Virus record (IMG/VR): IMGVR_UViG_3300043409_001550
Span: 1 to 35,861 of that record
Direction: 5' to 3' (one strand)
Source of the DNA: a virus
Length of the DNA stretch: 35,861 nt
Numbering within the stretch: the stretch's first letter is position 1; every line of letters starts with the position of its first letter. The notes under the pieces were generated by a model. The model saw only the letters and a program-made list of their open reading frames with translations, did no database searches and was not told the origin of the DNA. Positions 652 through 4,914 of this stretch are shown here, in pieces. A program made the translations under genes and the position numbers.

Positions 652-858
652 TTATGAACTCATTTTTAGGTTCAAATATTGATTCAACATTTCACGAGTC
701 GAAGCGCGAAGTCGTGCCGTAACCGTAAATGACCGCAATTCGCCAGATTGCCAAAGGCGCTCAATCGTCTTCGTTGAGCACTTAAGCTCTTTGGCCAGGT
801 CTTCTTTTTTTAAAATCTCAGGCGTGTTTGTCATCGTGACAACTTTTTGCTTTTTCAT
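652..858 (-). CDS. Excisionase-like small HTH protein
   Basis: A 68-residue basic protein with a winged-helix/MerR-type helix-turn-helix (about residues 14-60; core motif EDLAKELKCSTKTIERLW), as in excisionase and AlpA-like proteins. It ends one base before the integrase start. The usual job of such a protein is to bend DNA at the attachment site and set the direction of recombination; it can also act as a regulator. The ATG at 858 is preceded by AGAGGAC, a good ribosome-binding site. A later in-frame ATG (residue 9) is possible but has no such site. The family call rests on the motif and the location. Confidence 0.7.
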   Translation of the reverse strand: MKKQKVVTMTNTPEILKKEDLAKELKCSTKTIERLWQSGELRSFTVTARLRASTREMLNQYLNLKMSS

Positions 859-1125: not shown

Positions 1126-1817
1126 AGAGATACGCTCGTTTCTTGATAAATTTTAACTCCAGGTATTTCTCTAACACCTGCTTTAATGGCTTCACGGATT
1201 GCTTTTTCGTTTACGACTAAGAACTCTCTTGGCACCTTAGCGTTCTCAGTGATTTCAAATGTCCAAACTTTTCTGGTGCCAGCCACTTTCATCGAGGCAA
1301 TTTCTTTTTCTTGCGCCTTAGCCTGTAATGCAATTTCGTTTTTAACACGCTCGGCTTCAGCTTGAGCAACGATCTCGGCGCGAGTCGCGTCAGCATCACT
1401 CATAAATAGCGCCAGTGTTTCGGCTTCAGCTTTTTGTTCCTCTAGCTTTTTAGCTGCCTCGGCTTCGGCTTTGGCTCTTTCTTCTGCAAGTCTTCTCATT
1501 TCGATTTCGCGCGCCTTAGCCAGTTCAATTTCAAAGCTGCGCATTTGCTTTTTAATGTGTGCTTCAGCTGCGTCTAAAGGCTCGCTGATTTGTTTTGCGT
1601 ACGCATTTATCGTTTTCACATATTCATTGTACGGCTTAACAAGTTCTGTTCTTTTCTCTTCAACCTTTTTAGACCACTGCTTAACTTGCTTTCCGATCTC
1701 AACCGCAGACTTTAAGCTGTCTTGGTCTTTGATAATAACATCTAGGCATGGCTTTACGAACAGAGTGATATCAGCCTTTAACTGATCAAACTGTGTGAGT
1801 GATTTATTTTGTTCCAT
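1122..1817 (-). CDS. Coiled-coil protein associated with RecT
   Basis: 231 residues. Residues 20-180 are highly charged and helical, rich in Ala, Glu, Lys and Arg, and form a long predicted coiled coil (AEERAKAEAEAAKKLEEQKA and similar). The C-terminal 60 residues form a compact segment around GTRKVWTFEI and REIPGVKIYQE. I recognise this type as a common phage protein beside RecT-like annealases; its function is not established as far as I know. Its start overlaps the recT end by 14 bases and it shares an ATGA overlap with the next gene, so all belong to one operon. A structural or accessory role in recombination is a guess. Confidence 0.75.
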   Translation of the reverse strand: MEQNKSLTQFDQLKADITLFVKPCLDVIIKDQDSLKSAVEIGKQVKQWSKKVEEKRTELVKPYNEYVKTINAYAKQISEPLDAAEAHIKKQMRSFEIELAKAREIEMRRLAEERAKAEAEAAKKLEEQKAEAETLALFMSDADATRAEIVAQAEAERVKNEIALQAKAQEKEIASMKVAGTRKVWTFEITENAKVPREFLVVNEKAIREAIKAGVREIPGVKIYQETSVSL

Positions 1818-2703
1818 TTGCTTTTTCGCTTTCTAGCTTATCAACTAAGCTCATCATTTCTTCAGTTGTTAGTTCGTTCGGCTTTTTACTGAACCAAGTA
1901 TCAACCGCGCTCAATAAAACTTTACCAGTCCACTTTAAATCTTTTTGAAGCGTAGCAATTTTCTTCCCTAGGTCTTCGCGTGATGGCTCTTGAGATATTA
2001 CCTCTGGCTCACCTTTAATTTCAGCTTCAACGATTTCTTCCTGCTTCTGTTCGCTCTGGCGTCTATCCAATATGTCGGCGTTCATTGCTTTTGCTTCTTC
2101 AGGTGTTTGTGGTGCGAAATTCTTAATTGATTTTGGCTGTGCAATTGCTTCGGTTACTTCAGCGTTGACTGACCGTGGCGCCAAAGGGGTGACGTCTTTA
2201 ATGTCTTCTAATTCGTCGGCTGTGTAATCAATCCCCATTAAAACTTCTGGGAAAATTGCACGCTTCATTTCTGTAATACAGCGCCAGAACATCATCGTGC
2301 CCGGTTGTTTTTTCCAGTTATCTTTATTTAACAGCTCCATTTTTCTGGCGCGGTCTAAGTTCCATTCAAACGTTGCAAGCTTATCAACTCCAGGGCGTGC
2401 AGCTTTTAGAATGCATTTAGTTTCTGATCGCTCTTCAATAATAATTGTGGCCTTCGGGTGAGCCTTATAAATTGAGGCCAACATAATTTCTGCTGACATT
2501 GCTGGTTTACCTTGAATCACGTTGATGTGACTAAAAGCTACCATTGGCGGCAAGCCTAGTTCGAAGCCCTTAAGAGCAATAATCATTGCAGCCTCTGGTG
2601 TTCTAATTGCACTTGGCAATAGACCCGATTTGATTGCCATCTGCGCAATTTCTTTCATTTGTGAAAACTGCGATTCGCTAGGCAAAAGTGCTAGTTCGTT
2701 CAT
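1804..2703 (-). CDS. recT: RecT-family single-strand annealing protein
   Basis: Annealase that binds single-stranded DNA left by the partner exonuclease and pairs it with complementary strands. Family features: FELGLPPMVAFSHINVIQGKP near residue 55, followed by a beta-rich core, W.KQPGTMMFWRCITE and the GIDYTADEL motif near 195. The C-terminal 100 residues are more variable and acidic. I chose the ATG at 2703, about 299 residues, because it has a strong site (AGGGGGA) and starts 14 bases after the nuclease stop. A longer frame back to 2760 would overlap the nuclease gene. Confidence 0.9.
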   Translation of the reverse strand: MNELALLPSESQFSQMKEIAQMAIKSGLLPSAIRTPEAAMIIALKGFELGLPPMVAFSHINVIQGKPAMSAEIMLASIYKAHPKATIIIEERSETKCILKAARPGVDKLATFEWNLDRARKMELLNKDNWKKQPGTMMFWRCITEMKRAIFPEVLMGIDYTADELEDIKDVTPLAPRSVNAEVTEAIAQPKSIKNFAPQTPEEAKAMNADILDRRQSEQKQEEIVEAEIKGEPEVISQEPSREDLGKKIATLQKDLKWTGKVLLSAVDTWFSKKPNELTTEEMMSLVDKLESEKANGTK

Positions 2704-2717
2704 TCTTTTTTCCCCCT

Positions 2718-3536
2718 TCAAATTTCGATAGGTTGTTGATTGAGCTTGTACCCGGTCCATGCCTTGTCTCTTTGCTCGTTAAATTTTTGTAGCTGATCTA
2801 GTACGTCGCGAATCTCAGTGCTCGCTTTAATTAAAGAGCGCTGAGAAACTGGCAACACATTCACGTCATAAGGCTCTTGTTTTTCACAAGCGATTAATCT
2901 GAAGTCTGTAAGCGTTTGTCCTAAGACTTCGCTGCCAACCTCGAGATAAAAGGCAGCCGATATTCTATAGAGCCATTTTTTAGCGTCATAAGTAAAAGAG
3001 CCTTCGCTGGCATCCTCACAAGTTTTAAAATCACCAACGACAATTCTACTCTCAAGCTGATTCCATAAGTCCCAGCGACATTTTTTAAGAATACCAGTGC
3101 GTGAATCACGAGAAAAAAATGATGTCTCAAATCGCGCACCGTTCATAAGAATAGAGGCCTCTGGGTGCTCGGAGAGTTTCGTTTGCATTTTAGTTAGTAA
3201 CGTAAGTTCTGAGTCGCTTACTGCAATCTTGCCCTCGGGTGCTTTTGTTCTGTGATTTGGGACAATGACATACTCTTCTTTAAATATATGTGGCTCGCTG
3301 ACAAAACAGTGATAGGCGTTGCCAAAGCGAGTTGCGTTGTTGCCAGTGAATTTCTCAGTTTTCCATCTACGAATTGAGTTCTTGTGAATCGCCTTAATAG
3401 CGCTCGAAGAAATACCTGGACATAATGGGTGGTGATAAACCTGGATCGGTATATCGGTGAAAGAAGCAGAATCCAAAGTGCCTGCTACTTCCATTGAGCG
3501 TAATGTTTCTAAAATATCTAAGTGCTCTTTTTTCAA
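2718..3536 (-). CDS. RecE-like PD-(D/E)XK exonuclease
   Basis: 272-residue nuclease of the RecE C-terminal (DUF3799-like) type. It degrades one strand of duplex DNA to give the tails used by RecT. The expected catalytic pattern is visible: His76 in GNAYH, Glu137 in FETSF, Asp156 in KCRWDLW, and Asp169 with Lys171 in GDFKT. It is the first gene of the leftward early operon, directly beyond the GTAC operator tract. The start is a TTG at 3536 with GAGG seven bases upstream; the next in-frame ATG, at residue 15, has no better site. Confidence 0.88.
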   Translation of the reverse strand: MKKEHLDILETLRSMEVAGTLDSASFTDIPIQVYHHPLCPGISSSAIKAIHKNSIRRWKTEKFTGNNATRFGNAYHCFVSEPHIFKEEYVIVPNHRTKAPEGKIAVSDSELTLLTKMQTKLSEHPEASILMNGARFETSFFSRDSRTGILKKCRWDLWNQLESRIVVGDFKTCEDASEGSFTYDAKKWLYRISAAFYLEVGSEVLGQTLTDFRLIACEKQEPYDVNVLPVSQRSLIKASTEIRDVLDQLQKFNEQRDKAWTGYKLNQQPIEI

Positions 3537-3594
3537 GCTAGCCTCTTGCCGATTTTTTGCTATAAGCTCTTTTTGTCCCTTGATTGGGCTTTAT

Positions 3595-3628
3595 GTACTG
3601 TAAAGTACTATCTTGTACTCTTTTGTAC
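3595..3628. promoter_or_regulatory. Candidate operator: four GTAC cores phased at 10 bp
   Basis: GTAC occurs at 3595, 3605, 3615 and 3625, exactly one helical turn apart, between the divergent HTH gene and the recE-like operon. The first two form a perfect dyad (GTACT, 4 bp, AGTAC). The last two form a similar but imperfect one, with centres 20 bp apart. This fits two dimers of the neighbouring HTH protein bound side by side on one DNA face. Divergent promoters must overlap it, but I could not fix their -10 and -35 boxes. Confidence 0.65.
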
Positions 3629-3655
3629 GCTGGTAGTAAATAGGTAATTTTTACA

Positions 3656-3991
3656 ATGTCGAAGACGGTCAGTAAAATTAAACGCGCCATGATAGCTAAG
3701 GGCTTGAATCAAACAGACTTATCGAAATTGTCTGGCGTTAGACGCGCCACAATTAACGACCTGCTGGCTGGGCGTACAGAGCCAAGAACCGACACCCTTG
3801 GCCCTCTCTTTAAGGTTTTAGAAATTGATCTAGATGACTTTGAAGACGACAGTCTTAATCGTCTTATTAAACTAGCTGGCGAGCTAACATCTGAAGAGCG
3901 TGATACCGTTGCGCTTTCAATAGAAAGCCTTTTAAAGGCGCGTGAGAAGTCGTCGAATGTGCGATCGACGAAAAAATCAAGAGGCCGATAA
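3656..3991 (+). CDS. Cro/CI-like XRE-family repressor
   Basis: 111 residues and the only confident rightward gene. Residues 5-60 are a five-helix XRE-type helix-turn-helix (MIAKGLNQTDLSKLSGVRRA, then TINDLLAGRTEPR). An acidic linker follows (DLDDFEDD), then a short helical segment (about 70-100) likely to dimerise, and a basic tail. There is no LexA-like peptidase domain. It diverges from the recE-like operon across the GTAC tract, so it most likely represses that operon and itself. TAGGT at 3641 is a modest ribosome-binding site. Whether it maintains lysogeny (CI role) or promotes lysis (Cro role) cannot be told. Confidence 0.85.
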   Translation: MSKTVSKIKRAMIAKGLNQTDLSKLSGVRRATINDLLAGRTEPRTDTLGPLFKVLEIDLDDFEDDSLNRLIKLAGELTSEERDTVALSIESLLKAREKSSNVRSTKKSRGR

Positions 3992-4269: not shown

Positions 4270-4914
4270 CTAATAATCTTTTTTGAACAACTTGCCACTT
4301 ATAGACCGTTTAATCTGATTGTACTGACTCGAAATTAAACCAAAGTTGTACGGTGTAACAAAACCGACTACAGCAATCATTTTGTATTCTTCGTTAAAAC
4401 AAGGAACAGCTGAAGCCGTAAATCGAGTCGTGCCCTTTGGTGTTTTGTAGTTAGCAGACACTTCTAAGCTGTGCCCATTTTTGAAATGCACGTTATTGCG
4501 AATAGCAAAACGGAAAGCCTCTTTGTCTACAATTTCGCTGACATTCTTTCCGGATAAATAACTGCTTTTTAATCCAAACAAATAGTCATAGTTTTTCGAC
4601 GCATCAAAAACAATGTTGTGACTTGTTCGAACTAGCGAGCCGTAGCCCTCACCCGTAATCAAAAGTTTCTCAAAATCTTTTTCGGCATTTGGAAGGATTA
4701 GCCTGTTCATCGTAACAAGGTCGTTAAATGAGACATCTAGAGCAATTGCTATTAAGCACAAAGTTTCTACCGTTGCGTTTGCCTTTTCACTTTCAATCCG
4801 GGCAAGAGCGCGTCTAGATATTTTGGCTTTAGTAGCTAGCTCATCTTGCGATAGCTTGGCGCGAGCCCTAAAGAACTTGATACTCTGTGCAATGGTGTGA
4901 GTCAGAAAGTCCAT
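4270..4914 (-). CDS. XRE-type regulator with PAS-like C-terminal domain
   Basis: 214 residues. Residues 8-68 are an XRE helix-turn-helix (LSQDELATKAKISRRALARI). Residues 95-188 read as a PAS-like fold: a short beta start (RTSHNIVFDAS), helices (YLFGLKSSYLSGK, VSEIVD) and a closing sheet (EVSANYKTP, TRFTASAVPCF, KMIAVVGFVTPY). Repressors with LexA-like self-cleaving domains are the usual type; a PAS-like domain would instead bind a small ligand or dimerise. It is the last gene of the long leftward operon, 26 bases after rusA, with no clear ribosome-binding site. It may be a late or lysogeny regulator. The HTH call is firm; the PAS call is by pattern only. Confidence 0.8.
   Translation of the reverse strand: MDFLTHTIAQSIKFFRARAKLSQDELATKAKISRRALARIESEKANATVETLCLIAIALDVSFNDLVTMNRLILPNAEKDFEKLLITGEGYGSLVRTSHNIVFDASKNYDYLFGLKSSYLSGKNVSEIVDKEAFRFAIRNNVHFKNGHSLEVSANYKTPKGTTRFTASAVPCFNEEYKMIAVVGFVTPYNFGLISSQYNQIKRSISGKLFKKDY

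Follow-up and report, generated by a model that had tools for sequence, protein, structure and literature searches.

Genes and sequence of the divergent region

The window, meaning the whole stretch of DNA that was analysed, is one IMG/VR virus record of 35,861 bp from a phage that is very divergent and little known. The phage has a contractile tail, with sheath and baseplate families among its proteins, and its large terminase had one phage relative in the collection searched (Bacillus phage vB_BboS-125, 30% identity). A divergent intergenic region of 119 bp (3537–3655, from the ORF table) is bordered on its right by the plus-strand gene of a 111-aa XRE/Cro-CI regulator of the HTH_3 family (3656–3991) and on its left by the minus-strand gene of a RecE-like exonuclease with a TTG start (2718–3536; PHROG 412, E 9.7e-44; DUF3799, E 1.2e-24). 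The latter is the first gene of a divergent operon, the second gene of which encodes a RecT-like ssDNA annealing protein (1804–2760, minus strand; PHROG 561, E 4.5e-24), and an exonuclease-like protein is also encoded further along the same strand. The initial annotation placed the region between divergent regulators, which holds for the XRE gene on the right; the gene on the left heads the recE-recT operon, such that this is not the lambdoid cI/cro layout of an operator between two divergent regulator genes. A consensus promoter scan returned no hit inside 3537–3655, where inspection by eye gave weak candidates at most and none is claimed.

Two further genes encode potential DNA-binding proteins. 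A small winged HTH protein of 68 aa (652–858, minus strand) is excisionase-like and of HTH_17 type, with a match to PHROG 66 (E 1.7e-4) and a Pfam HTH_17 match below the cut-off (E 0.0033). The other protein is a second HTH_3 regulator with 214 aa (4270–4914, minus strand; Pfam HTH_3, E 3.5e-12); its gene converges on the 111-aa gene and shares no border with the intergenic region. By eye, the C-terminal half of the 214-aa protein appears PAS-like, and a domain of that type would be uncommon among phage regulators.

The intergenic region contains four copies of GTAC at an exact 10-bp period (3595–3598, 3605–3608, 3615–3618 and 3625–3628), and the resulting array (3595–3628) is separated from the 111-aa gene by 27 bases. 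The starting positions given for the four copies in the initial annotation are exact, and the array is real and beyond chance. The pattern GTAC(N6GTAC)x3 matches at a single place in the window, and 100 dinucleotide shuffles contain no match. When all tetramers made of three or more distinct letters were screened at periods of 8–14, the GTAC array was the sole array of at least four copies in the window, while the same test on 200 dinucleotide shuffles gave a mean of 0.01 arrays. GTAC is under-represented across the window (54 copies vs 83 expected), and the clustering of four copies is therefore not a product of composition. As a separate observation, this scarcity may represent avoidance of a GTAC-specific restriction enzyme. 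Tandem repeats of GTAC-containing 10-mers are frequent in viral contigs, with spacers at least 70% alike in 16 of 40 distinct arrays, which would favor a chance array or a recent functionless tandem duplication of a 10-mer. For the window, such an origin is highly improbable: the three spacers differ (TGTAAA, TATCTT and TCTTTT) while GTAC is intact, arrays of any kind are nearly absent from the shuffles, GTAC is otherwise scarce and the array sits in a divergent intergenic region.

Symmetry of the array and the recognition helix of the adjacent regulator

GTAC is its own reverse complement, and thus the cores alone cannot choose between an inverted and a direct reading. Read as inverted repeats, sites 1 and 2 form a proposed operator dyad O1 (3595–3608, GTACTGTAAAGTAC) and sites 3 and 4 a proposed operator dyad O3 (3615–3628, GTACTCTTTTGTAC), with centres 20 bp apart and no half-site in common; a possible alternative middle dyad, O2 (3605–3618, GTACTATCTTGTAC), would use half-sites common to O1 and O3. 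Inverted symmetry that extends past the core is present in O1, where the perfect GTACT-N4-AGTAC dyad reported initially at the first two sites is found, and absent in O2 and O3 outside of the self-palindromic GTAC. The 434 repressors provide the closest geometry, a site of 14 bp in which the starts of the two 4-bp outer half-sites are separated by 10 bp, and the window has this pairing of half-sites twice, beside the regulator's own gene. The contrast drawn initially with lambdoid operators, on the grounds of their separate dyads 20 or more bp apart, consequently fails, because pairs 1+2 and 3+4 are ordinary 14-bp dyads 20 bp apart. Like the arrangement proposed for the window, the 434 Cro/CI system combines an XRE fold with tandem operators between divergent promoters, but the 434 half-site is ACAA rather than GTAC, the window recognition helix reads RRATIND and the divergent partner in 434 is a second regulator where the window has recE. 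Additionally, the dyad-to-dyad spacing in the window equals the spacing within a dyad, unlike in 434, which merges the sites into one even array.

Conversely, sites 2–4 fit direct repeats better (unit 2, GTACTATCTT; unit 3, GTACTCTTTT; then GTAC), and shifting positions 3590–3635 by 10 gives a self-match of 64%, compared to 14–16% for shifts of 9 and 11. Direct repeats about one turn apart, as used by BldC- and Xis-type proteins, are therefore present with a 10-bp period. At smeA-sffA, BldC occupies four direct repeats of regular spacing, and it forms head-to-tail oligomers on such repeats; RdfS covers ~10 bp per molecule, and the BldC, RdfS and Xis systems have in common several protein copies placed at about one turn per molecule on direct repeats or tracts (PMC5859096, PMC11963761). 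By analogy with these systems, the 68-aa excisionase-like protein could bind the array head to tail, oligomerise on the 10-bp direct repeats and control recE-recT, an operon to which its own gene may belong. The one-turn period of sites 2–4 and the protein's match to PHROG excisionases (with the weak HTH_17 match) are consistent with this, and the 68-aa protein is in principle a credible filament former. The reading is nevertheless unlikely. The HTH_17 match is below the Pfam cut-off, the gene is 2.7 kb from the array and no integrase was found among the window proteins scanned. Further, BldC, RdfS and Xis are winged HTH proteins of the MerR/Xis type with a loose, shape-based or AT-rich preference, while here GTAC is strict and the spacers are variable; the protein encoded next to the array is of the XRE family, and the sole resemblance to BldC, RdfS and Xis in this phage is that of the distant 68-aa gene.

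The 111-aa protein is a clear member of the XRE family. It matches PF01381 (HTH_3) at 44.9 bits against a curated cut-off of 23 (E 1.2e-11) as well as PHROG transcriptional repressors, and its AlphaFold model has the five-helix XRE fold at residues 3–55, with pLDDT 81–93 over residues 1–60. The best structure matches of the model, reaching E 4e-3, include HipB, DdrO, C.Esp1396I, 434 Cro (2cro) and SinR; a search of solved structures by sequence found none at E 0.01. Two C.Esp1396I dimers sit next to each other on a 35-bp operator beside the protein's own promoter (PMC4041747). This system resembles the window in its small XRE protein and in the length of its operator, 35 bp compared to the 34-bp array; it differs in its half-sites and in that no restriction-modification genes were identified beside the array, and the 111-aa protein has a greater length and a C-terminal helix in its predicted structure.

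The recognition helix of the 111-aa protein, GVRRATINDL (residues 27–36, inside SGVRRATINDLLAGR; predicted helix 30–37), provides a link between protein and array. A regulator from Sediminibacillus (L365) with the identical helix has the upstream dyads TTACGAATTTCGTAA and TTACTATTTTCGTAA, two regulators with the helix GIRRATINEL (L399 and L438) have GTACGTAATACGTAC and GTACGATATTCGTAC, respectively, and a regulator from Subdoligranulum (L465, GIRAATINEI) has TTACCTATTTCGTAA. Based on 101 distinct XRE upstream regions, and with the window itself left out of the counts, [GT]TAC-N6/7-GTA[AC] occurs upstream of all four genes of the GxR[RA]ATIN helix class and 3 of 96 other XRE genes (Fisher p = 9e-6). 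The direction is clear, but the p-value is optimistic: the motif was set after seeing L365, the class was broadened to R[RA] after L465, and of the four genes three are related to each other. The strict form, GTAC-N6/7-GTAC, occurs upstream of two of the four and none of the 96 (p = 0.0012). Close relatives with other helices (GIRPSTINDL, GIRPNTINDL, GIRRNTINDL, GLSRATVTLL and others) are without the dyad. The helix-class relatives share helix residues and upstream dyads with the window, while their overall identity to the 111-aa protein is 22–36% (three aligned), their dyads have N7 rather than the N6 of the window and they carry single or paired dyads instead of a long four-site array. No helix-class members beyond L365 were found in ~990 Bacillota genome draws (299, 399 and 291, partly overlapping). 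It is likely, from these sequence comparisons, that the helix GxR[RA]ATIN reads the half-site [GT]TAC. Because its helix class carries matching upstream dyads, the 111-aa protein is the most likely ligand, which lends indirect support to the initial proposal that this protein binds the array.

Two regulators acting on one operator region are frequent in phages, and a second XRE-type protein, the 214-aa HTH_3 regulator, is encoded 0.6 kb from the array. The array could accordingly be the operator of this protein, or of a host factor, in place of the 111-aa protein. The helix of the 214-aa protein (ISRRALARIE) is unlike those of the class associated with TAC...GTA dyads, and its gene is not adjacent to the array, making this assignment unlikely.

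Relatives of the locus and phased GTAC arrays in viral DNA

A close relative that keeps both the gene pair and the array was not found in IMG/VR, in phage and plasmid records or in the genome collection. Single-protein scans of IMG/VR with the XRE and RecE proteins yielded no relatives, and the scan of genome-collection contigs with the XRE protein yielded two distant relatives. A RecT scan identified 12 distant loci, at none of which the RecE-XRE pair was detected, the pair was not shown in six named phages with RecE relatives and a DNA similarity search of phages gave no match. A literature search for GTAC phage operators returned nothing relevant. The layout of the window does recur in one named phage, Vibrio phage D478 (OZ196413), in which a RecE/Erf operon is divergent from a small XRE gene. 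D478 has no GTAC array and AT-rich repeats of the TTAACTA type in its place. The XRE protein of D478 is 43.6% identical to that of the window within the HTH and its recognition helix differs, so the lack of GTAC in D478 would be expected if the operator follows the recognition helix.

Viral DNA often contains GTAC arrays with an even phase. Four GTAC copies at 10-bp spacing occur in at least 120 IMG/VR contigs, and 9-bp and 11-bp control arrays likewise each occur in at least 120, such that the 10-bp phase, put forward initially as significant, is not shown to be special. The 120 loci listed for the 10-bp spacing collapse to 40 distinct arrays. Many of these are near-perfect tandem repeats; the locations of others include gaps between replication- or recombination-type genes, the vicinity of terminase-small-subunit-like genes and the ends of integrase-like genes (genes read by eye). 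Non-coding GTAC pairs in the fetched viral DNA, counted with the selecting arrays masked, numbered 9, 10 and 8 at spacings of 10–12 bp compared to 1–5 at most of the remaining spacings not divisible by 3, a mild excess. With phased arrays this common and several uses likely, phase alone implies neither a filament nor an XRE ligand. A general association of GTAC arrays with XRE genes was also considered and rejected, as most of the arrays lie away from such genes: the 120 loci listed include four XRE genes at a distance of 600 bp or less from the array.

Several array types stand out in their own right. A GTACCGAAAT-type 10-bp array is conserved in 42 of the 120 listed contigs (L005, L008, L022 and 39 similar contigs; GC about 0.5), mostly between genes of ~685 aa and ~115 aa, and is possibly an origin or control region. 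The 11-bp arrays often consist of two 15-bp GTAC-N7-GTAC units, for example GTACTGTAAAAGTAC, located 22 bp apart (as at L260:3585, L270:6, L274:2365 and L320:777), and these paired units may be paired operators or iterons. One 11-bp array (L315:2871) is situated 66 bp upstream of an ERF-type annealing-like gene, which recalls the position of the window's array upstream of recE-recT. Further arrays are found beside terminase-small-subunit-like genes (L011:4366, L093:1722 and L121:10422) or at the 3' end of an integrase-like gene (L003:2410 and L024:4501), and some of them may be packaging sites or integrase arm sites.

These occurrences bear on whether the array of the window is an iteron cluster for another DNA transaction, be it a replication origin, a packaging site or a set of integrase arm sites, that is positioned upstream of recE by happenstance. 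Such a role would fit the recurrence of GTAC-N6 arrays between other gene types in IMG/VR, including the single family that makes up 42 of the 120 loci listed and the arrays at terminase-like and integrase-like genes. Within the window, however, the terminase and portal genes are ~26–29 kb from the array, neither an integrase nor a replication initiator was identified beside it and an iteron role leaves the helix-motif link unexplained. A role of this type is therefore unlikely.

A predicted operator and its consequences

The array is probably a functional operator with unusually even spacing of its half-sites, in what is otherwise a fairly ordinary arrangement, and there is good reason, from the comparison of sequences, to expect that it serves the adjacent 111-aa XRE repressor. 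The binding, stoichiometry, promoters and sign of regulation that follow are predictions. Each GTAC would be the outer contact of one half-site, and two half-sites with their 6-bp spacer would constitute one 14-bp site of the 434 type. Two XRE dimers would then most likely occupy 3595–3608 and 3615–3628 side by side, about two turns apart on one face of the DNA and probably with cooperative binding, while the middle register (3605–3618) would offer an alternative site for a single dimer. Protein bound in this manner would be located upstream of both genes, ~28–61 bp from its own start codon and 59–92 bp from recE, where it would block or tune both divergent promoters and so combine autoregulation with control of recE-recT.

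Symmetric dimers are the usual binding form of XRE proteins, and a pair of dimers on one common half-site would be expected to clash. The filament-like binding suggested initially did not gain support, as two ordinary dyads suffice and the helix-class relatives are without long arrays; a filament is not needed to explain the array. Continuous occupancy of all four sites, whether by XRE dimers in alternating registers with half-sites in common or by head-to-tail copies of the 68-aa Xis/BldC-like protein, is improbable. Should it be true, the switch between the regulator and the recE-recT operon would be steep and all-or-none.

The prevalence of evenly phased GTAC arrays in viral DNA means that an even 10-bp phase by itself is no sign of a filament. 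For a very divergent phage, the two-dyad operator predicted for the 111-aa protein provides a concrete candidate. If the proposed half-site code holds, the operators of other small XRE regulators with a GxR[RA]ATIN helix would be predictable from sequence.
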